Assembly: GCA_950295325.1 (NCBI GenBank)
Contig: OX485803.1
Coordinates: 16,866,001 to 16,930,000 of the forward strand
Source: Polytrichum commune
Taxonomy: Eukaryota > Streptophyta > Polytrichopsida > Polytrichales > Polytrichaceae
Length of the DNA: 64,000 nt
Reading direction: 5' to 3'
Position numbers and translations under genes: made by a program. The notes under the pieces were generated by a model. It made no database searches. It had not been told where the DNA came from and saw only the letters and a program-made list of their open reading frames with translations. Positions 14,100-59,055 of the stretch are shown piece after piece (the stretch's first letter is position 1; every line of letters begins with the position of its first letter).

Positions 14100-14647
14100 T
14101 GCAACCCTAGAAGACCCGCGCCACGCCATCGCTAGCGCAAAGCTAACCAGAATTGAGCAAAAGCCTCAACAAGACTTCGAGGTTCTGCTCGTGAGATAGC
14201 AGAGCGGAGCGGGTTACGGGTTGCGTACGCATTGGGTGGTACGCTGCCCGCTGCGGCATTCATTCATCCGGGGAACATTGGCTTTCAACCCTCCGCTGAT
14301 TTGGTCTGCTGCTTGGGTGGAAAGGAAAATAAAGCAAAGGAAGTGAAGAGAAGAATAGAAAGCGAGTGCGCAGGATGTGCCGTTGAGGTGTGATTGAAGA
14401 TTGTATGCTGAACGCATTGCCTTCGCACCGACAAACGGGGTTTGTTGCCCGCCATCAATTTCTGCGTTTTCTGTTGGTTAGGGTTTCGTGGAAGGGTTTT
14501 TGTGTGTGAAGCTGGGGAGTTGTGTGGTGTGAAACGTGGAGAGTGTTTCTTAGGTCGAGCTGTGGTGCGTGTGTGTGTGTGTGTGTTGAAGAGTGTTACT
14601 GGTTTCTTGTTTAGGTCGTAGTTTGGGCAAAGGCGAAAGAAGAAGAC
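14100..14647 (+). promoter_or_regulatory. Probable promoter and 5' UTR of the ACINUS gene
   Basis: Immediately upstream of the ATG at 14648 the sequence becomes GC-richer and free of long repeats, as expected for a promoter and leader. It contains TTAGGGTTTCGTGG at 14478, a motif type common near plant transcription starts, and a (GT)n run at about 14569-14586. No canonical TATA box was seen, so the transcription start is not placed. Confidence 0.4.
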
Positions 14648-17600
14648 ATGTCGAGCCCTTTGGCGGCCCTGGGCAATCGAACGCCGGAGCAGCTAAGGGT
14701 TCCCGAATTGCGGGAGGAGCTTCGGAAGCGAGGTATTCAATTCAAGGGCTTGAAGAAGGACCTCGTTGATCGGCTGGAAGAAGTGCTTCGACAGGAAGAA
14801 GCGGAGCAGATAGCTCTTGCTAAAAAAACTGAGACCGCTGGCGACAACGCTAGTCCCCCTTCGGAGACTGCTGGTGATGGGGCCCCTGACCCTGTAACAC
14901 CGTCTGCAGATAAAGGAACTGATGATGAGGAAAGAGACTCTGATGCAGGACCTAAGGAAAATGTGGCTCCTGAACCTGAGAATGTTATCATGGCCGAGGA
15001 CACATCTAAGGAAACATCTGGAGGATTGGAGGATTTACCTGCTCAAGGTCAGGCAAAAGAGGTTATCATTGCTGATATATCATCTACAGTTGCTAACGTG
15101 GAGTCGGAGGCCGAAGTAACAAACCTGAATGTCGAGGTAGCCACCACTGTTACTGTGGTCGAGGAAACGATGATTGCAGCATCAGCTGCAGTGGTTAACC
15201 ATTCAGAAGCGCCTTTGGAAGACAAAGGTGCGGTTCAGTCTGCACCTATTAACGAGGAGGAACCTAAGACAGAGGTTTCAACTATTGTGGAGGAGCAATC
15301 AGTTTCAGAGTCTGTAGTGGTTGTACCATCCACGGTGGACAATGAGGATATTGTACAACCTGTTGTTATGCCGGAGGAGGGTTTGGGAGATTTGAATGTT
15401 GTGCAGGAAGAGGTTATCCAGGAGAAGCCTGTAGAGGCAGAGGTTGTTACTGCAGTGGAGGTGGGAGGAGGAGAGGTGGATGAGCCAGCTGTGTCAATGA
15501 ATGTAGAGGAACAGACTGTGACAACTATCACGGAGGAGGAGACTGTCACGACGACTGTGGTCATTGAAGAGATGACGACTTTCACGATGGCTACAGATGA
15601 GCAGACTGTTACAACAAATGTGGGGGAGCAATATGTGAGGACTACTTCAGAGGAAGAACATTCTACAATGAGTGTTGATGATAATGAAACCCTGAAGAAG
15701 ATCGAAGACAAAACGGACGATGTGATGGAGGAGGCTGCTGAGGAGGATGATCGTACAGCGATTGATGGTGCACAAGAAGCAGATGGGGAAGCCAAAACAG
15801 AAGCAGAAAAACCCATGGAGATTGATGCAAATAGTCACAAAGATTCAAAAAGGAAAGATATAGGTTGGTGTCATATACCTGGGGTTTCTCCTTGTTTTGT
15901 GTTTATGATGTGGAAGTTTTCAATATATCCTTTCTGGCAGATTTATCTGGGGCCTTTTTCCAAAGATTTTTTTTTTTTACTGGAGAAACCTACACTGATT
16001 TCATGTTTGCTCTCAACACTTTAAAAGGGCATGAGGAAACTGTAAGCAAGTTAGCATCTTGAATGTTTTCTACAGGCTGTCTTTTTGTTTGTTTGTAACA
16101 TTGTGATAGAGAGTTCACAGTGATTATCTTCCACAAATCTGGTCACTCTGCGTGCCTTCTATGTGGACAGAAGCATTTAGTTAGTTATTATTATTATTAT
16201 TATCATTATCATCATCATCATCTGTTTTGTGTGCCCACATTTGGGACATAATTAAGATGAGACTGTGCATATGAGGGCTCTCAGATTAAATTGTGTGGTC
16301 ATGCAATGCTTCTGATCCTATGCTAACCTTGTGGAGGTGTTTGCATTTGTGGTGCACTTTGGATGATTACCCACTCTAATCAGCATATCTGTGTATCTGT
16401 GTTAGTAACATGTTGTCTCCCTTCTCTGCAGCGGATGGGGAGACAAGAACACAGGAACCCACCAAACGTCGAAGATGGAACACTGGGGTAGGTGAAATTG
16501 ATGCAAAAGCTCCGGCAAGGATTGCAACAACAGAGGCTGGGACTGAGGTACCTTCTTCTGACCCAAAGGAAGAACTGCCCTCATCAAATCCTCCTGTGTC
16601 AGCTCCAACAACATCTACAACTCCTAAGGTTGCCCCTGCCCCTGAGAAGGTGGCCATTACCAGGGCTACACCATCGAGAACAGAGGGTGTGGTCAATGGA
16701 GAAGTACAAAAAGCTCGTGTTGGTAAGCACAATACGATCTCTCTTTTGACAACTTCTTTTAAACAAATTGAGCAGATAAGCATGCTAATTATCTTTGCAG
16801 TTGAGATCAAGGATGTGAACTTCTAATATGAAAGGAGTGGGCTCACCTTTGTCTGTCAGGCTTGCAATCAGTATTGTGGGTTTATATGCTTGATGAGCCT
16901 TATCAAGCTTCTTTAGTCCTGTCACCAGTGGGCTTCTCATCCTGCTTAGTCCTTCTCATGACTTATGTTTCTTAGTAATTGGGACTGCCTCTCCCCATCA
17001 ATCTCCAGAACTGTGTTTGGAATTACTGTGATATGAACAATATTCTCCATTTATGAATTCTTGAAATGCAATTGATGTGCAGTGCCAACCAGTGCCAAGC
17101 CGGCAACTACATCATTAAAGATCGACAGATTCTTGCGTCCTTTCACTTTCAAAGCTGTTAAGGTGCTACTTGCACAAACTGGCACTGTTGAAGACGTGTG
17201 GATGGACCAGATCAAAACCCACTGCTATGTTACGGTGAGTACACCATAATTACATAGGCTATATGAATTCCCCTATCTGAGGGGAGATAAGCTGATGCTG
17301 TTGAGCTGAACTGTACTTTCTGTCTGTGAGTTGTTCAAGGCTTGGTTTGCATTTTATTAAAGTCTGCTGTTGTTGTTTGCGCTTTGCAGTCTGTTCATAG
17401 CACCTCACTCACTCTCTTCAAAATATGCTCATGTTGTGTTCCCACGTTTAGATATACAATTACTTTAATGGACAATGCTCAGAAGAACTTTGAGTGTGAG
17501 GCTTCTTTTCTTTCTATGATTTGCTGTAGCAAATGTAGTCATCTGGGAATTATGAGGACACAGTAGACTAGTTGTTCAACTTATTAGCGTTGGAGGTTTT

Positions 17601-29329: not shown

Positions 29330-31641
29330 ATGGAGAATTACGAAAGTGAGCTATTCATGTCACAGGAAAACTATGCATCTATTGACTTCACTCTGCTGGA
29401 CCGGCCGAATAACAAGTACGAATTGGCTCTTTCTTGGCTGACACCTCGACCCTCTAGTTTAACTCCATTTGCGCAACAAGAAGGATCAGCTCCTCGCACC
29501 TTTGACGTTTTTTGATAAATTGTTTACTTTGAACTTGATGATTCCTACTTCTACTCGGACTTCCCTAGCTTATGACTCTGTGACTTAAATAGGCTTGGTC
29601 AATGATAATTTACACTTACCTGCTTCTTACTTGTGCTTTGCAGCATTGCTTCAGCACCAGAGGCCACTGCATCTCTGCTTCCGGGTAACTGAAGACTACT
29701 TTGAAAACTTATTAACCTGGTTTGAAGAGATACTCATTTTCACAGCATTTGTTTTGTGAACTCGTAGAGGTCCATTAGGTTGTACTGACAAGCTTGTGAT
29801 GTTTGTGGCCTGAAGATGTACATGTCGCAGATTCTTCTTTTTCATCATTTGATTTCTTAGATGGTTCGGGAGTAGTTGGCTTGAATGGATTTCCTCGCGG
29901 GGTTGATGAGAACCAGCCTTTGGAGCACCCAAGGTACAGCCACTCTCATAATCGTCTACATAAAGTTTAGAAAAGTTTTTCCTGGGACTATAGTGGTCTT
30001 CTTTTAAGGAAACCAAGTGTATTGAAGTTTTGTTTTCATGACACCAGGGTTGTATACTTGGAAAGCTAGTTGTGACAATGATCAGATTTCGTTGTCATCT
30101 TAGCTTGTATCCTATTTTTTTTACTAGAGTACTCCCTTATTTCTTCCTTTTAGTGTGAGGATGCAATACGTGATAGGGGTTGGTAGTACTCCACAAAACA
30201 CAGAGTAATTACACAGCCATGTTCATAGAGGAGCTTATACTGGTTCTCATATCAGTGTCCCAGTAAACAACCATTCTGGTGCAATGATCTGTGGTCAACC
30301 CATTGGTCAGCATTAATTATTTGATCAACATTTGTCTGAAAAGTACTTGAATGAGATCTTTCAATTATGTGTTGTTTATAAGTGGGAGCTAAAAATTTCT
30401 GTGACCTTTTTTGCCTCTGAATATATTAGGCAGATCCCTCAAATTAATCTATAAGTTCTTCTGTGCAGGGCTGAGCCCGAGAAGGAGATGTATCAAGAGC
30501 GGCCAATGCATCCGAATGCTGAAGTATTGGAGCCAAAACCTTCTCTATCTTATGTGATATGGTTGTGAATTTTACCTGTAATTCATGAACATATCTTATG
30601 TGGTAATGAACCTCATTTGGGTGTTAAAAAAACCAAGGTTTAAGCTGGATGGAAAGCAAATCTGTCGTCCAGATCCGTCATCATTGATACTGGATTATCT
30701 GTCTCATACATATCCAACTGTGTGGAAAGTGCCCTGCATTTATGGTGATGAGAGAGAATTTTGACGTGTGTGTGAAGGTGTTAACTTGTGTTTCACATTG
30801 GGTGGTTATTTGTGCAGAATGGAGTGGCAGCTGCTAATGCGGAGTATAGTGAATATCAGATGCCACAACCAGTGCCGAAGCCTGTGTCCAATGTGGACTT
30901 TTTTGCTAAAAATCAAGCAGGTCAACAGCAAGAGAACCAGTCTCAGCTTTCGCTTTTTGGCAGTGATGGTGCTGAGGATAATCAAGAATATTTTGAAGCA
31001 GGCCAGGCTTCTCAGCAGCCTCAGCAATCTCAACCAACAGCTAACAGCTGGTGGACGCCTGACAATGCCTGGATGGCAAACAATAGCAATAACCAGAGAG
31101 ACCAGTCCCAGGTTTACATGCAGATGAAGGCTGGGAATACACAATCTAGTCCACAGTCACAGTATCCGGGAACTCTGTATTCTATGCCACAAGCAGTTAA
31201 CAGCGATCCCACGCCTATGTACTCCTTTATGCAAACAAATGCAAACCAGCCCCACAAGATGGCTCAAACAGCTGCAGCAGGTCTGAATGTGTCAAGGGTG
31301 CAGGGTGCTCAAGGTTCTGCAAGTGTGAAAAACCCACAATATGATTTTCAGGGCCTTCTGAATGGCCCAGGATATAATCAGGGGGGATCTGTTGGCCAGA
31401 ACATGAATGTACCTGAGCAACATCGGTACAGGCTTATGATGCAGGAAGCCAGCCGAGAACAGCAGCTTCGAATGCATGGGCAACAAAGCCAGAGCCTTAA
31501 TAGGTATGAGGGTCAAAATGTGATGGAATCACCTATAAAGGTCAGTGACTATGATTTTCTGGGTGGTGATTTCTCGATGAAGGGGCAACCACAGACGGAG
31601 ATTGGACAACAGCTAGAAGAGGGTGACTCCCAGATGTGGCG

Positions 31642-31674
<33 letters not shown>

Positions 31675-34600
31675 GCAGCAGCAACTACAACAGCAACAGC
31701 AGCGGCAACAGCAGCCGCCATCAGCACGGCAACTTCCTCATCAGTTCAATGCCTATGCAGGTGGCAACTCCTATGAAGAGATGCAACAGCGTCAGCAGCA
31801 ATCTCAGGTTGGTATCCCCAATATCCTCGTACCAGAGGTTAAATATTTCTCCTCTGGCTACTGTCAATTAAATCACAAAGCAGTGAATGCTAGGGATGGT
31901 ACCTGTGCATGCAGGATGCTCAGGAATTGCTGACCAAGAACTGCTTGTCATCAGTGAGGCACGCTGTGCTGTCTGCATTATGCATGGGGCAGTGGTGCCG
32001 TAAGGCACAATCCCCTACTTTCCTTTTCACTGCGGGTTCCATTTCTGCCCTGTAGAGGTCAGAAGGTTCTTAATGTTCAAAACTGCAATAAAATGTACCA
32101 AATTCATCCTGGTAGGCCAAAGATTACTGATTTATTGAAGTCTCTTGTGTGTCATCCATCAACCTATGCATTGCAGCATCCTGTTTGTGTGGTTGGGGGT
32201 TGGCTATAACTTGTTTTTTTAAGTGACATCAATATGGGTTTTGAATACTTCAGATACGCCAACGAATGCAGCAGCATGCCCAGCAGCAGCAGCTCTATGC
32301 TGGTAATCAGGGCCAGGCTTCCGGGACTCAGTTCCAAGCTTTTGTGAATGAGGGTTCCTATCAAGAATTACCACAAGTAATGCAGCAGCAGCCTGATCGG
32401 ACTAACCCTCAACAGATGGGAATGGAGGCTCATCATGCGCTGTTGCAATCCAACTTGCAATCAGTTAATCAAAGTAATACAGGGAGTGCCATGTATCCAG
32501 GAAACAATGAAGGGGGAACTGGGCAGGGTCCTGCCATTGGTTATCTTCTTGGGCAAGACAACAGCTTTAGTTGGCATCAGTTAGCCATGAAAGCATCTGG
32601 GTATGATCAGTCCTTATATGCTTCTGCTGCAAGTAGTGGTAAGTTGGGTCAGCAGGCAAACCCATATGCTAATATGCATGGCGGAGCTATGGCAGGTTTT
32701 GTGGGAGGTATGAACAAGCATCCAGTAGCTAGTGCACATGTTAATAGGCCCATCCCCCGCAGTCTTGGAGCAGGGCCCTCTCCATTGTTTGGTCCAGATG
32801 GCCGGCCAGTTGCAGATCAGCAGGCCTCCAAGGCCAAGATGTTGTTCGGACAAACTATGCAGCAGCAGCAACAACAACAACAACAACAACAACAGCAGCA
32901 GCAGCAGCAACAGCAACAACAGCAACAGCAACAGCATCATCAACATCAGCAGCAGCCACCTCAGGTGGTGAAGCACATCCAAGGGTTCTCTGGTAATATT
33001 CAGCAGAACAACTATTCAGCATCAAACCGTCAAGCTGTGGAAGATTCACAAAGACGGCAACAACAGATAATGAGGGCTAATTCTGTTCAGCAAGATGGTA
33101 CACCTCAAGTGAAGCTGTTTGCTCAAAGTCTTACGACATTGGACCCTATGCAACAGCAGCAGCAGCAGCACAGTTTGATAGCAGGGAGCAGGAATTCTCA
33201 ACATCAGCAAGCTGGTTCTGCAAGTGCTATGCAGCAAGCTTCACATAACATGCCACAAGCAAGAAATCCACAATTAGGACCTAGTTCTGGACATTACTAT
33301 CAGCAAGGAGTCAATCAGACTGGTGGCTCATTCTTGCAGAATTCAAATGATCCAAAACGGCGGCAGATGTGGAGTAACTATGATTTGGAGCCTGGTTCAG
33401 CACAGGTTGATGTTCCAGCTGCAATGCCAGGAAGTAGCAATTCCATTCTCAAAAACAGCAATTGGAATGCCGGTGGTGAGGTTCAAGGCCCTGCTGAGAA
33501 TGACAACTCCTTGGTGTTTGGGAGATCAAAGATTCAGCAAAATATATGGGGTGGCAATGGGATGCAACAGAACAGTTCCCAATCTTCAGGCGATCTTGAT
33601 CCTAGACACCGTGGTGTGCAAAGTGGCCATCGTATTCAACATGGGACCTCCCAGCCAACAGATGGCCACTCACTAGCCAGCCAACCAAATGGTAGTAACC
33701 TGCAACGTAACACTTTGGGAACATCAGTGTTGGATCTTGCAGACTTGGACAATAGAAGGTCACAAGAGCTACAGAACTGCCAGGAGGAAAGCAATTGGCG
33801 TGACCACAGTTTGCTGCAAGCAAGCCCTCAACAAGCAGCTCCCACCAATTCATCTTTGCAGGCATTTGCAGAGATGGACCGAACACAGACTAGCTGGAAA
33901 AACTTATGGCAAAGTGTGAACCCAGGGAACTCAGGTCAGCTGGTCGAGTCAGACAAAGTGGAGCAGAGCTCACTGTGGGGGCAAAGCAGCTCTCATGTGG
34001 GCGGATCTCAGCCTCTGTTACCTGATGGTCCAAATGCGAGGGTGGAACATAGTGGTTGGAGTGGTGGGGAAGGAGCTTTGCAGACAGATACACATGGGGA
34101 GAGGGAGCTGCTAAGTCACCAACCCCTAAGGGATGAGCAGCAATTTGTACAATCTGGAAGCCCTCAGCCAACTCAGGCTTTCCAGGATGGGGATGAAAGA
34201 CAGCTGTTAGCCAATCAGGGTCCCAATCTCCAGGAGGCCTTGAGCCATGCATCTATGAGTGATAACGAACCAAGCTCAGCAAGTCGCCATGTGGAACAGA
34301 GCTATCAACAGAGGGGTTCCTTTTCACACTCCCTGGATAGGAGTGGGAATCAGAATAACCAGAACTCCTCTGACCCTGTAGGTCATAGCTCGGGTAGCAG
34401 AGATTCCATGCATTTTCCAAACCTCTCTATTGAACAGCAGTCCTCACACCAGTCCTCATTGAACAAGGCAGAATTACAGCACCAAGGAAGAAACAATGCT
34501 TGGTCTTCTCTTGGTGCCACATCAGATTCTAGGCAGACTCTTGATGAGGCAGCTATTCCAACCTTGGAGAGTAGTACTTTAAGGCAGGATCATCCAGAAG

Positions 34601-37600
34601 GTAGGGTGCAGTTGCAACTCAGTAACCAACAAACTGAAAATCGTTTCTCTCACCTGATGAATGCTAGGTCTGCCAATTTACAAGAAGAGGCACAGGGTGG
34701 GCAGGCACTTCCTACAATGAATGCAGTCACAGGCTACAGACATCAAACAGACTTGGAAAGGTCTGGTTTGCCAAATGGAGCTTTGGAAAATCCTATGTCT
34801 GGATGGGTACAGGGACAAGTTGCTGGCGGTCAAAGTCGCACAGAACAGTCAAAGCTTGGGGGGAGAGCACTACAGACAAGCAGTGTAGCTGTAAGTGCTG
34901 GAAAGGTAAATGAGCTGGCCTTGGACTCTCCTTTTTTTCTTGTTGAATCCTCAATGTTTGGTTTCTTTCTGGCTTGGGAGTACGATTGGGAGTGCCTCTA
35001 ACAAAGACAAATTAAATATATATTTCAGGAATATTTCACACCGCCAAGACCTGAAAGCAGCATGGAGGAACATATGTTGGCACAGAGAGCACGATATCAA
35101 GCTCAACGGAGTGAGCTAAGAGATGCTACGGATTCTGGAAGGTAAATACCTAGTCTATAGTTTCATAATATTTTTTCTTACTGCTACTGTTACCTCACAG
35201 GAGTGGAACTTGACTTGCAATTCTCCCCTTGCAATTTTCTAGTGGAGCAGGACTTGCTGTATGTCCTCATTAGTATCTCAGCTTCTTTGGCTGCTTTTAA
35301 CTTGTTGGTTGACAATGGATTTATGATGTATAATGCTCTTACTTTTCAGAAATACTTTGGAGCTGTTGAGCCGTCCAGAGCAGGGTGAAAGGAGTACAGA
35401 TGGTCTGGAAGATCAAGAGGGAGTGGCATTAGATGATGGTGGAGCGATGTCAGGGGTGTCATTAGCACATCTACGGCGAGGTCAGTCTTACTGCTCTTCT
35501 TTAACAGCAAATGATCCTTATTTCAATTGCTTGGCTAGTGTCTAGTTGGTAAACATGCAGATAAGTTTGTGTTGTTTGAATTCTTTTTTTGAGGACAATT
35601 GTTTACCTCTGCTCCTATGTTGTTTAGTATACATAGCAGTTGTCTCCTTTTCTTTCTCCTGTTGATGGGATGGTAGGGGCGTTTTAAAAATCTTCTGCCT
35701 CCTCTCTGTAACTAGAAGCCAGATCATTTTTGCATTTGATGCTGGCAACCACTGTCGAGGATGATGATGGGTCGATGAACCTGGTGTTCGTAACATCCAA
35801 AGAACTACACTATTCCTATTAGTGGGTGGGAAATTAGCATGGAAATAATCAAATGTGGGTCCAAGACCCAGGTCTCCCCCTCAGTCTTTCTCGAGACTTT
35901 TGACCAACACCTTACATAAACAAAATAGTCACTTTACATTAAAAGTAGAATAAAATTGAATACTCACCCACATCAATTTTCAGAAAATCACGCAATGTAG
36001 TCCACACTAAATTTATCTAGAGATTTGGCGTGGGTTGAAATTAAGGTGGTTCACATTAATTCTCACTGTGAGAATTGATGTGGGCTCTAAAGGAACCACT
36101 GTGGCCCACACTAATATGACTGTTAGTGGATTTTACCTGTGTCCTTTGGCTCTGTGCTTTGGTTTTTGGAGAATCATCATTTAGTTACTTTCTCAAAAAA
36201 GTACAAATCCAAATTGCCATTTGAACAAGTACAAACCCAAGTTGCCTGGAGAGGACATTTGAATTGTGGAATGATGCCAACATTGTAACTAATTTGATCC
36301 TCTTCCTTGTGCAGGTCCAATGGGAAGTATCTTGCAACGCCCAACTCCTTCGCGGCCAGAATCTGCATCTCGAGAACAGTTAGATCTCCAGCTTTCAAGG
36401 AATATGGAGAATTGGCCTCAAGGCAGGAATCTTGCTCCGGACTTCAGAGAGGAGGGTCATGCATTTGCACAGGCTCAAATGTCTGCCCAAAGCATGCGAG
36501 CAGCACAGATGCATGGTGATGGTATGCCGCCAAAGCAAGGTCAAATGCCAGAGAGGATGAATATCAATGCCATGTTCCTTGGTGCCAGTAGACACCTCCC
36601 AAATGACCTCTCCAGGCAGCAAGCGCAGCACATTTATAAAAATCTCAGTGCTGCAGCAAGGTTGCAGTTTGTGCATCAGCTGGCTTCTCAGCAAAGCCAA
36701 AGGGCTAATGCAGCTGCCCATTCAGTGGATCATTCAAACTTACCCCCTTTTGCAGACCCTAGAGCTGCAATGCAACAGCATATGTCCAGAGTTAACTATC
36801 CGGAGAGACCAGCAATACCTGTTGGCCTATCCCCTGAAAAACCCCCTGCTTCTGCGACTGCACTGGCCCCTGTTGCCCCTGGTCAAGTTGGTAATGAATG
36901 GTCTCAAGAGCAATCTGTTGCCTTGCAAGAACTGAAACACGCCGCTCCAGTTGAGCCACCACCTAGGAAACGGAAGGAGTACTCACCTCTTGTGCCTTGG
37001 CGTATGACAATTACGCACGCGTCTTGCAATCTTGCAAATACAAGGTTTGTTGAAAGCTTTTTATTTTATATGCAAACAGAGGATTGTAGAAATGATCTCT
37101 TCCAACCTTTGAAAGAGAAGGGACTGACATTCTCTGTGTTGTGGAGGTCTCTTTGAATCAGTGAGAAATATGCAGTAGTAACTGACAGTTTTAGTATAGA
37201 TGTGTAAGGATTCTAATACCTGATGAAATATGTGTGATGATCTATATGTTGATAGGCTGAGATTTTGATTTTTATCTGCTTATGTGTGACTGGGTCTAGA
37301 TATGCAACATCTTGGTGCAACTGTGGAGCAGTTCCTTACAAAATCTAGGCCCTTCTATACTACTGGAAAAATATTATCAGCATCAACCATGCTGTTATCA
37401 ATATGGTCACCTGCAGATTCTGATCCTTGTGTGCCCTGATTATGTGTTGCAGTCGCACTGAGATGGAATGGGCAGCAGCAACCAACTCTGTTCCAGAGCA
37501 GGTGAGGAAGTGTGCCATTCTATTTTGCACATAGAAAAATTAGGATCTGTCTCATCTACATATTTTAGATGCTGAAATATCAACAGTATAAGATATTTAA

Positions 37601-48089: not shown

Positions 48090-48800
48090 TGATCGGTCGA
48101 GATCCCAGTGTTTCCAAGTACGACCGAGGTTACATGTTGGGGTCTTTCGGCTTTTTCGTTTAATGGTTATTTGAGGTGTGTTCCACAGATTTTAAAGAAC
48201 GATCAGTACCGTTTTTTGAAGTCTTGAACTTCTGCCGGTTGTTTCTCGAACTTGTGCTCCAACCACACCAACGTTTCCGTCTAGTTCTAGCCGTGGAATC
48301 GTTGGGGGTTGTGTTGAGAAATAGATGTTGGCCCACCACTTTTTTCACACTATTACAGCTGGAGGTGCCGGTGGAGGGTGTCAAAAGTGGCTGGTGTGAT
48401 CAACCCCTCTACTGGTTCAGGTGTAACTGGCTGTCGGTTCTCCGCAATCATTGGAGTCAATAAAACCAACTATTTGGGCGTGCTTGCTCTGGTTGTTTCT
48501 CGAATTCGTGCTCTGATCACACCAATGTTTGCATCCGGTTCCCACCGTGAAATCAGTGGGGGTCGTGTTGAGAAATAGATGTCGGCCCACCACTTTTCAC
48601 TTTGATGGTGTCAAAAGTGGCAGGTGTGATCAACTCCTCGGTCAGTCTATCTGTAACTCGCGGTCGGTTCTCCCCATTCGTTGGAGCCAATAAGGCCAAC
48701 TATTTGGGCATGCTTGCTCCAATCATTTCTCAAACTCATGCTCCGATCACACCAATGATTCCATCCGGTTCCAACCCATGGGAAGCTCCAACCCATGGGA
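48090..48800 (+). repeat. CCGGTT-type repeat (family F) with an internal tandem duplication
   Basis: It starts with GATCGGTCGAGATCCCAGTG and TTTCCAAGTACGACC. From about 48250 a unit of about 230-250 bp is repeated: CACACCAA, AAATAGATGTYGGCCCACCA, GGTGTCAAAAGTGGC.GGTGT, then GTCGGTTCTCC and CCAACTATTTGGGC. Landmarks lie at 48311 and 48563 and a third partial unit ends near 48800. Related copies are at 49440, 50985, 53180, 57945, 58205 and 58835. Confidence 0.75.
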
Positions 48801-49439: not shown

Positions 49440-49660
49440 CAGTAATGCCCGGGAGGTTTTGGGGCATAAACCTAACCTAGACTTTGCAAGTCCAACTGGT
49501 TATACATGTGGTGATCTTTCGCTTTTCCTTTATTAATTTGAGGGATATTCTCTAGATTCCTCTAACAAGATCAGTAGTTTTTCCTGGAGTCTTGGACTTC
49601 AACCAGTCGTTTCTTGAACTCAACTGGTTCATCTCTCTATCTAGTGGTCGAATCTCCCCG
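49440..49660 (+). repeat. Family F repeat copy (+)
   Basis: GGGAGGTTTTGGGGCATAA, GCAAGTCCAACTGGTTA, GTGGTGATCTTTCG, TCCTTTATTAA, TAGATTCCTCTAA and TCTTGGACTTCAACCAGTCG follow the order of the copies at 57945 and 58835. Confidence 0.7.
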
Positions 49661-50984: not shown

Positions 50985-51195
50985 ACTCTCAGGAAGTACC
51001 GGCGGTTAGTTACAGATGAAGCGGTTGAGTTTGAGAAATAACCGGTGTAAGTGCAAGACTTCATGAGAATTACTGATCATTTTAGAGGAATCTATAGAAT
51101 CTACCCCGATTCAATAAAGCAAAAACCGGAAGATGCCGTCAACATGTAAGCGGTTGGACTTGCAAACACGAGGATCTCGACCGACTATACATCTT
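50985..51195 (-). repeat. Family F repeat copy (-)
   Basis: GTTAGTTACAGATGAAGCGG, GAGTTTGAGAAATAACCGGT, GAGGAATCTATAGAATCTAC and TTGGACTTGCAAACACGAGG are the reverse complement of the copy at 58835. Confidence 0.75.
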
Positions 51196-53179: not shown

Positions 53180-53400
53180 AATCTTGAACACTGGTTGCAG
53201 GTGACCCGGTTGAGTTTTGAGAAGTAACCGGTGGAAGGTGATCAAGACTTCAGGAAAATTATGACCCATCGTCCTAAAGGAATCTGTGGGCGAATATTCC
53301 CTAAATTAATAAAGAAGAAATCGAAACATGGAATCGCTTGGACTTGGAAACACTAGGATCTCGACAAGCCAATTATGCCCAAAAATCTCCCCGGACACCG
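53180..53400 (-). repeat. Family F repeat copy (-)
   Basis: GGTTGAGTTTTGAGAAGTAAC, AAAGGAATCTGTGGG, TTGGACTTGGAAACACTAGG and GCCCAAAAATCTCCCCGG are the reverse complement of the 57945/58835 copies. Confidence 0.72.
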
Positions 53401-56220: not shown

Positions 56221-57717
56221 TTTAGCTACCATTCCCCATTCATAATAGCCTCTTATTCTTTGTGCCGGACCCCCACCCAACTGCCAAAGAATGAATTGTC
56301 CACCAAATTTGTGAATTTATACTCAGTATGTGACTCACTCACTATCAAACTCTTGATAGGTTGTAGCAGTCGCTTCTCTAGTCCAATTGAGGCGTTCTCT
56401 AAAACATTGGAAAGCATCGGAGAATCATTGTCCAATGCAAGCTCACTCTTTCAAATCGGAGTCACCCGTAAAAGAATGACATTGGCCCTATATGGAACAT
56501 ACGCTAGGTTGCAAGACGTTCTAGATCTCAACTTGGGACATCACCCATGCTTAGGCTCAAGGGATCTTATGTGGGTTCTTTGGCACCTACCTTTTGCCAC
56601 GGGGGACGTTAAATACCCCCCCCCCCCCCCCACAAACTTTTCGGACTGTCAGAGTCGGGCTGGGGCAGCCGCCCGGCCAGAAAATTTGAATTTTTTGGAC
56701 CTGACCGAAAACTGCTGCCCGCCCGCCCGATTTCGAAAAAACCATTGCCCTTGCATTCTTGAAGGCCACTTACTCACAAATCCCATATTGAGTGCACTTC
56801 ACCTTCAAGGGCCAAAATCCAATATATATGTTCACTTCCATTGAGTAAATAAGCAATTGACTGGGGTTTCATTATCAAAGTGAAACCCTCAATAAAACAT
56901 GTAATTAACTTGGAAGTCAAAAATATTACAAAATTCCAAATATTAATTATTATAATTAACTCACTGGAATATATTCCAATAATTAATTAATTACAGTAAG
57001 TACATTTTATAATCAATTAGGTTTACTTAATTTGGTAAGCATAGTTTCTGATTTATTTGGGATTAATGAAGATTAATGAAGATTAATTAGACTTAATTAT
57101 ATTTAATCCCACTTGATATTATTGAATGCGTATGAATACTTGTGAAAGTAGACGGCATTACCTAAAATATTATAAAATACACATACTAAATCAACACACT
57201 AAATTTAAGTGTCATTTTAGAATGACAAAGACAATTTCAAATTGTGAGTCACAAAAATTATAACCTCAATGTTAGTGAGGGTTTTGTAATATTTTTGGCT
57301 TCCAAGTTAATTACATGTTTTATTGACGGTTTCACTTTGATAATGAAACCCCAATCAATTGCTTATTTACTCAATGGAAGTGAACATATATATTGGATTT
57401 TGGCCCTTGAAGGTGAAGTGCACTCAATATGGGATTTGTGAGTAAGTGGCCTTCAAGAATGCAAGGGCAATGGTTTTTTCGAAATCGGGCGGGCGGGTAG
57501 CAGTTTTCGGTCGGGTCCAAAAAATTCAAATTTTCTAGCCGAGCGGCTGCCCCAGCCCGACTCTGACAGTCCGAAAAGTTCGTGGGGGGGTATTTAACGT
57601 CCCCCTTTTGCCACCCACTTCCTTGCCATCGTCAAGGGAGACTTAAAAGTCCACCCCCATTTATTGGTGCGGATCATCAGTGAACGATTCCTATCAACAG
57701 GGGCCACTTTTTGAGTT
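56221..57717 (+). pseudogene. Open frame split by the Mutator-like element
   Basis: A frame is open from after a TGA at 56218-56220 to the left edge of the transposon, about 126 codons. If the element and one TSD copy are ignored, the same frame continues beyond 57606 for about 34 codons to a stop near 57717. The product is unrecognised and has no obvious domain. It may be a fragment of a gene or older transposon, or a chance frame. As it stands it is interrupted. Confidence 0.3.
56601..57605. mobile_element. Mutator-like element with 330-bp TIRs and perfect 9-bp TSD
   Basis: The ends GGGGGACGTTAAATACCCCC and GGGGTATTTAACGTCCCCC are inverted, and the TIRs run about 333 bp on the left (to 56933) and 324 bp on the right (from 57282). 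They differ by a few substitutions and by a longer C run on the left. The perfect direct repeat TTTTGCCAC flanks the element (56592-56600 and 57606-57614). Very long TIRs with a 9-bp TSD are diagnostic of the Mutator (MULE) superfamily. The 348-bp AT-rich centre has no transposase, so the element is non-autonomous. A transcript across it would form a very long double-stranded stem. Confidence 0.92.
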
Positions 57718-57944
57718 GGTTTAGCTAGTGAGAGTCACTGGTTGCAACCAATGCTGGTACTCACCGTTCACTGGTGGCTTGCATCAGTAAGTGTGGGTGG
57801 ACTTATAGACGCCTCCAAAATCCACTCTTTTGTACAGCTCACATCTGCAACCCTTGCGGGATGTGGGTGTCCACCCCAACAAACAACGTGTCAGCACACA
57901 TCATTTAGGGGTGCAAAAGGTTCATGCACGTATACATCCGTGGC

Positions 57945-58160
57945 TGGGGAGGTGTTTGGACATAATCGGTCAACATCTGAGTGTTTCCAAGTCCAACCGG
58001 TCACATGTTGTGATCTTTCGGTTTTTCTTTAATACTTTGAGGTGTATTTCATAGAGTCTTGTAGAATGATTGTGGATGTTTGCTGAGCTCTTGAACGCCA
58101 GTCAGTCAATTCCAAATTCAACCGGTTCATATGTAACTAGCAATCAATTCTCCATGTTCA
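57945..58160 (+). repeat. Family F repeat copy (+)
   Basis: GGGGAGGTGTTTGGACATAA, TTTCCAAGTCCAACCGGTCA, GTGATCTTTCGGTTTT, CTTGAACGCCAGTC and AACCGGTTCATATGTAACTA follow the family order. Confidence 0.75.
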
Positions 58161-58370: not shown

Positions 58371-58493
58371 GGACATAACTTAGGCATGACCATGGGAGTA
58401 TTACCGTTAGGAGTATTGTTTTGACAACCCAATTCTAAGACGAGATGTGTATGCAATTAGACGACCATGAAGACCTGGGTATGAGGGCCCTGA

Positions 58494-58647
58494 GGGCATC
58501 GCCAGTGGATCTAGGTAAAGCTCACTGCAAACCAAAACCTATCTTTTGACTGACCTAAAATTAGAAACTGAAATTACCATCATTAGGTCAGTCAAAAGAT
58601 AGGTTTTGGTTTGCAGTGAGCTTTACCTAGATCCACTGGCGATGCCC
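58494..58647. mobile_element. Perfect 65-bp-arm hairpin (Harbinger-like MITE), TGA-flanked
   Basis: Arms 58494-58558 and 58583-58647 are exact reverse complements over all 65 positions, separated by a 24-bp loop. The ends are GGGCATCGCCAGTGG and CCACTGGCGATGCCC, with TGA on both sides (58491-58493, 58648-58650). End sequence and 3-bp flank resemble plant PIF/Harbinger MITEs, although TTA/TAA is the usual target. Perfect pairing indicates a recent or conversion-homogenised element, or a young inverted-repeat small-RNA locus. Confidence 0.9.
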
Positions 58648-58834
58648 TGAGAACTTACCAGAGTACATGAACATAGACATGTATTGGATCCATAGGGCAA
58701 GGCAAAAAGAAGGTGTTTAAATATGTCTTCAGGGTTTGTTGGTCAGAAACCCAACACCCAACAAAGCCCACATTTAGGTTCTGAGGAGCAAGTAGCTCAG
58801 GGAAAAAGGAATGGAGTCCGGACCAGTGTTCGGG

Positions 58835-59055
58835 GAGGTTTTTGGGCATAATCGGTTGAAACCCTAATGTTTGCAAATCCAACCGGTTACATGTGTTCAT
58901 CCTTCGGTTTTCCTTTATTAAACTGGGTATATTCTATAGATTCCTCTAAAATGACCGGTAATTCTCCTGCAGTTTTGAACTTCGACCGGTTATTTCTCAA
59001 ACTCAAGCGGTTCATCTGTAACTAACTGCCGGTTCTCCCTGATCATAGGTCCGGA
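58835..59055 (+). repeat. Family F repeat copy (+)
   Basis: GGGGAGGTTTTTGGGCATAA, CAAATCCAACCGGTTACATG, TTCTATAGATTCCTCTAAAA, AACTTCGACCGGTTATTTCT and TAACTAACTGCCGGTTCTCC; the best-preserved copy in this orientation. Confidence 0.78.

Follow-up and report, generated by a model that had tools for sequence, protein, structure and literature searches.

The region around positions 56592 to 57614 of the window, meaning the whole 64,000-nucleotide stretch analysed (C1:16866001-16930000), raises the question of what kind of sequence holds two long, nearly matching inverted arms between two copies of a short direct repeat. On its own, the window element is an ordinary transposon copy of a kind already known. 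We are highly confident in classing it as a non-autonomous DNA transposon of the Mutator-like type (MULE) that moves by cut and paste, with a MULE transposase supplied in trans from another locus. The long arms and the 9-bp target-site duplications (TSDs) indicate the MULE class, and the lack of recognised coding capacity indicates the non-autonomous state. The initial annotation had made the same call, and the features described below bear it out.

The whole element, delimited by its matched arms and TSD and by relatives in its own genome, spans positions 56601 to 57605 (1005 bp). Its left terminal inverted repeat (56601 to 56933, plus strand, 333 bp) starts with GGGGGACGTTAAATA and contains a 16-nt poly-C tract, and its right terminal inverted repeat (57282 to 57605, minus strand) is 324 bp long. 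The alignment of the two arms shows 316 of 324 positions to be identical (97.5%), with 8 mismatches, 7 of which are transitions, and one 9-nt gap within the poly-C tract (16 C versus 7 C); the arm-to-arm K2P distance is 0.025. The arms of about 330 bp that differ only slightly, as initially described, are thus confirmed. The arms enclose an A+T-rich loop of 348 bp (56934 to 57281), which has a G+C content of 24% (43-45% in the arms) and no Pfam match above the cut-off. With 309 ungapped nt at 97%, this is the longest inverted repeat among those listed in the window, the next ones being 157 nt at 78% and 135 nt at 84%.

The element is flanked on both sides by an exact copy of TTTTGCCAC (56592 to 56600 and 57606 to 57614, plus strand), in agreement with the 9-bp duplication reported before, and this is the sole 9-mer common to both 300-bp flanks. 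The direct repeat is strictly 11 bp long (CCTTTTGCCAC), since TTTTGCCAC is preceded by CC in the left flank and, on the right, by the final CC of the CCCCC that closes the arm. The copies described below support a length of 9 bp.

Relatives were searched for in the window's own genome (407.8 Mb, 64 contigs). Using the element as the query, at least 22 places, including the window, match near full length at 90-100% identity among the best 40 of 2660 candidates. The terminal 15-mer GGGGGACGTTAAATA occurs in the genome 69 times forward and 66 times in reverse, 135 times together, compared with 0 and 0 for the reversed control, and two complementary patterns together list all 135 termini (71 and 64). 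These exact termini form 48 adjacent inward-facing pairs, with spacings from about 470 to 4170 bp. A diverged group whose arm matches at only about 75-82% (L082, L085, L092, L093, and L095) shares the 15-mer, which is also found at L094, where the likeness to the arm stops after 22 bases, so that the 135 occurrences count the termini of a wider family and not the copies of the 1-kb group.

We sampled 60 loci by non-random choice (8 and 32 from the element-similarity list and 20 from the terminus list) and called both ends with up to 3 mismatches per end; L053 has a second possible pair, and its inner pair was set by hand. Both ends are present in 53 of the 60 loci, being absent in L071, L073, L075, and L092 to L095, and the 53 two-ended loci sit on the seven large contigs. 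The initial annotation had made its call depend on other copies with 9-bp TSDs, and 44 of the 53 copies have a TSD of their own with at most one mismatch, 36 of them exact. An exact 10- or 11-bp TSD is found in none of the 53, which fixes the TSD of the window element at 9 bp and rules out the 11-bp alternative. The duplication is exact at 8 bp instead of 9 in L013 and L074, fits 9 bp after a one-base shift in L046 and 7 bp after a shift in L049, and has 2 mismatches over 9 bp in L076. Four of the 53 copies (L050, L057, L070, and L091) have no duplication, and L096, which lies outside the 53, has a 9-bp duplication with one mismatch. The 36 exact TSDs show a target preference: of the 72 cells at positions 2 and 8, 48 hold the favoured T (position 2) or A (position 8) (binomial probability of about 8e-11 against a background of 0.295), and of the 72 cells at positions 1 and 9, 52 hold G or C (8e-8); the window TSD matches the preference for T2 and A8.

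These features correspond to the published description of MULEs, for which one source gives TSDs of 9-11 bp and arms of 100-500 bp (PMC3310237) and another a TSD range of 8-11 bp (PMC6446971). The window element has the typical TSD length of 9 bp and arms within the common range, and it shares its exact ends with unrelated places in the genome. A 26-mer of the element gave 0 matches in prokaryote genome contigs, and a 20-mer gave 0 matches in viral contigs. An 18-mer is found in five viral contigs, where the likeness ends within 18-23 bases, and we put these matches down to chance.

The Pfam search of eight stop-free frame pieces across the element found no transposase family, and seven of the eight pieces are without any family; the only row is a sub-threshold match to Phage_gp53 (E value 0.17). 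Neither does the tblastn search of the window with MULE frames yield a match, nor do Rfam, at gathering thresholds, and ARAGORN find anything in the window. The initial annotation had suggested searching the host genome for an autonomous partner; this search returned relatives and places with the MULE transposase domain, but not the partner itself. The MULE domain (Pfam ID PF10551) is found at at least 142 places in the genome (150 of 271 candidates scored), which indicates that MULE transposase genes or their remains are present. When these places were paired with exact termini only, none of the 142 was within 15 kb on the inner side of a terminus; the closest on that side are 45-46 kb away, and one place lies 5.7 kb outside an exact terminus. 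The arm is absent from 30 MULE loci chosen among the 142 places, each read with 1.5 kb on either side. A tblastn comparison of the three long relatives (4129, 3945, and 4171 bp) with frames taken from 23 of the 30 loci gave no match, the frames having been chosen crudely and several being shorter than the open frame at their locus. A partner with slightly different ends is a possible source of the transposase. The matched ends, the 9-bp duplications differing among dozens of relatives, the target preference, and the lack of recognised coding capacity fit a mechanism in which the transposase would bind the long arms and cut with a 9-bp stagger. Its source would be a MULE of the same genome, either not found here or gone.

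The two flanks of the element differ in their repeat content. Searching the genome with the joined 300-bp flank returned its own two halves separately, and none of the 40 other matches listed (of 277 candidates) spans the junction; 38 of them cover about query positions 175-300, and 2 are short reverse pieces (query positions 180-235). The matches listed thus include no paralogous copy of the empty site. The right flank, from about 25 bp past the TSD (approximately 57639 to 57764), is a dispersed repeat with 40 matches listed at 80-87%, and the 150-bp left flank has only its self-match among the matches listed. In the rebuilt empty site (56221 to 56600 joined to 57615 to 57714), one frame is open for about 160 codons, and Pfam gives no match for the scanned frame piece, which crosses the border between the left flank and the left arm; the element may lie inside an old reading frame, or the open frame may be due to chance. 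Around the element, an old repeat of about 150-210 bp is dispersed in both orientations, at 48093 to 48252, 49483 to 49634, 50989 to 51188, 53194 to 53398, 57962 to 58139, and 58826 to 59042. A second hairpin at 58490 to 58651 has 69-nt arms that are 99% complementary and 24 nt apart, and the region from 58470 to 58670 folds at -139.5 kcal/mol (z score of -22.9). No clear target duplication was seen by eye for this hairpin, which might have arisen by a recent inverted duplication or serve as a precursor of small RNAs. Host genes of the window are located at 14615 to 16024 and 30785 to 37156, with a frame for a SAP-domain protein (Pfam ID PF02037) and long glutamine-rich frames, the latter without a Pfam family at an E value of 0.1.

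The initial annotation had also taken the similarity of the arms to suggest that the element was inserted recently or homogenised, a reading that is not supported for the window copy. In the 1-kb group (24 copies), the arms of the same copy are on average 0.970 identical, compared with 0.965 (left-left), 0.962 (right-right), and 0.963 (left-right) between copies. As the identity within copies is only slightly above that between copies, arm likeness gives no insertion date, and the variation carried by the arms is mostly family-wide. Dating by arm divergence was dropped for this reason, and computed ages were left unused because they depend on assumed substitution rates and on the premise that the arms were identical at insertion. 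Over the whole element, the mean K2P distance between copies of the 1-kb group is 0.033; the window copy differs by 0.0226 from its nearest relative (L007) among the 23 other 1-kb copies and by 0.0227 from the column majority, versus a group mean of 0.0178. By these distances, it is an average or slightly worn member of its group. A very recent, still segregating insertion with just-homogenised arms would agree with the 97.5% arm identity, the intact TSD, and the slight excess of within-copy identity, but this excess is less than one percent point, one window arm is closer to an arm of L062 (0.981) than to its own partner (0.975), and no other 1-kb copy is nearer than L007, making such an insertion quite unlikely. 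Younger family members do exist in the 1287-bp group, where L078, L079, and L080 have mutual K2P distances of 0.0023-0.0039 and the four 333-bp end stretches of L079 and L080 are all the same in sequence, and the window copy is not among these younger members. In some longer relatives, the two arms of the copy are nearer to each other than to those of any other copy (for example, L066, 0.983 versus 0.961; L074, 0.988 versus 0.976; L065, 1.000 versus 0.988), so recent insertion or homogenisation may hold for them.

Across the 53 copies, arm length changes in steps, as measured by a search for arms that extended to half of each element. Arms of about 320-370 bp are found in the 24 copies of 978-1042 bp, arms of 407-410 bp in 7 copies of 1102-1113 bp, and the longest arms, of about 500-737 bp, in 20 copies that measure 1179-1483 bp and include two members of the diverged group (L082 and L085). 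In 18 of these 20 copies, all but L065 and L069, the unpaired remainder is no longer than about 90 bp. The one copy that we inspected at its centre, L080, shows a clean repeat over the first approximately 490 bases, followed by a gapped run through a central A+T-rich tandem repeat. The extra arm sequence of the longer copies matches the loop of the window copy, which in these family members belongs to both arms. As the longer arms take in the loop sequence, we infer that the loop of the window copy is either the unpaired remainder of a longer inverted repeat or the raw material for one, in either direction of change. The left arm might have grown by copying the right end, or it might have shrunk by deletion near the centre of the palindrome; beyond the left arm, members of the 1.1-kb group have about 40 bp in which the inner end of the left arm of the window copy is repeated, and this direct repeat makes both routes possible. 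At L092, L093, and L095, which are single ends (each from 501 to about 1127-1143), one arm of the diverged 1.3-kb palindromic group extends over about 630-640 bp and stops near the centre of the palindrome, and no right end is found in the next 9 kb; these loci are either halves of palindromes or elements of very great length.

The FARE elements of Arabidopsis are foldback elements of plants, and the window family resembles them by description only, in having long arms. Near-palindromes of this kind could point to a strict Foldback-type element, with the palindrome as the working unit, a Foldback-like machinery, and only a convergent likeness to MULEs. The 20 of 53 copies with the longest arms, the 18 of them with little unpaired sequence, and the A+T-rich tandem repeat in the centre of L080 are what such an element would have, and the Tm1 Mutator/Foldback elements of root-knot nematodes join Foldback-like arms of variable length to mostly 9-bp TSDs and a MULE-type transposase (PMC3169594). 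The arms of the window copy, however, do not make up nearly the whole element, leaving the 348-bp loop unpaired, and its 9-bp TSDs and long arms match MULEs directly, so that we regard a strict Foldback-type element as unlikely. The example of Tm1 shows that the categories are not exclusive, and Foldback versus MULE is therefore mostly a question of naming. According to the same report, Tm1 has a TSD of 8-10 bp in 45 of 53 elements, arms consisting mainly of 13-15 bp tandem repeats, and terminal motifs that differ at the two ends, and it is reported without a clear target preference, whereas the window family has one (PMC3169594). Two further explanations do without a transposon, namely a hairpin-RNA locus of the host and an artefactual inversion in the assembly. 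A transcript of the window element is predicted to fold into a single hairpin of -661 kcal/mol (a value without a shuffled control at this length) and, if made, could feed small RNAs such as the siRNAs proposed in the initial annotation. The exact TSD and the 53 two-ended loci, 44 of which have a 9-bp TSD of their own, refute both of these explanations, leaving them practically no chance, and we retain the non-autonomous MULE.

There is also a sister family with other outer ends. The nested elements in L077 and L094 start with GGCAGACGATATGCTACC and have exact 9-bp duplications in both cases (2 of 2). They share with the window family the inner arm (positions about 91-333, 88-90%) and not the outer 90 bases. 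The sister terminus GGCAGACGATATGCTACC occurs 26 and 24 times in the genome, with 0 and 0 for the control.

Three pairs of exact ends are long, namely L076 (4129 bp), L077 (3945 bp), and L096 (4171 bp). L076 has a 192-codon frame with a dirigent-like domain (Pfam ID PF03018; E value 8.4e-26), which recurs with 99% identity in the genome protein search at C6:5210045-5210665; a 65% relative of the frame is located about 6 kb beyond. The C6 locus aligns with 2926 bases of the L076 interior, of which 2870 are identical, with 48 mismatches and 55 gap columns (98.4% identity in aligned bases over 2.9 kb). The match halts at both interior borders, and the C6 dirigent locus has no match to the window element. 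With the alignment confined to the interior and the C6 locus lacking the element, L076 is, on this comparison of sequences, a Pack-MULE with a contiguous 2.93-kb copy of chromosome C6 and an intact dirigent-like gene. There are 4 differences in the 576 bases of the frame (2 amino-acid changes) versus 44 in the 2342 bases outside (Fisher test, 0.044), which is weak evidence of constraint on the dirigent frame. The dirigent gene family itself suggests a land plant as the host. L096 carries frames with an RNase H domain (1.3e-14) and a PCIF1-type WW domain (9.4e-8), an unusual domain pair located at L096:2292-4057 on the minus strand, and this cargo is perhaps derived from a retroelement. L077 contains a stretch of unknown residues (a run of N) in addition to its nested sister-family element.

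L076 thus holds sequence of another chromosome between family arms, as Pack-MULEs and Pack-TIRs do, and it differs from Pack-MULEs in that its cargo goes beyond a fragment and includes a complete reading frame. The window copy differs from them in having no recognised gene, with no Pfam family above the cut-off in its loop to indicate captured host sequence. For animals, gap filling and replication-fork switching have been named as the origins of such elements (PMC8277862). In the literature searched, mostly without subscription papers, no paper pairs a Pack-MULE with a dirigent gene. The non-autonomous TIR-MULEs of plants, such as the maize Mu, tomato, and rice families, have the same arms of 100-500 bp and TSDs of 9-11 bp and lack a transposase; in contrast, the arms of the window family vary in steps and reach near-palindromes, and the likeness described here is one of structure.

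Taken further, the family might have turned near-palindromic by repeated exchange between its arms, with a palindromic branch that is still young, and might have duplicated a whole working dirigent gene between chromosomes, so that the same family would supply both gene carriers and the double-stranded RNA able to silence them; we consider this combined picture doubtful. What stands out most belongs to the relatives, namely the palindromic arms and the carrier of a whole gene. The family also cautions that high arm identity does not date the insertion of a MULE if arms taken from separate copies resemble each other to about the same degree. With stepped arms behind the same outer ends, the family offers a clean set for arm-length change in MULEs, and for whole-gene pickup by MULEs, L076 gives a carrier with clear borders and a 98.4%-identical parental locus.
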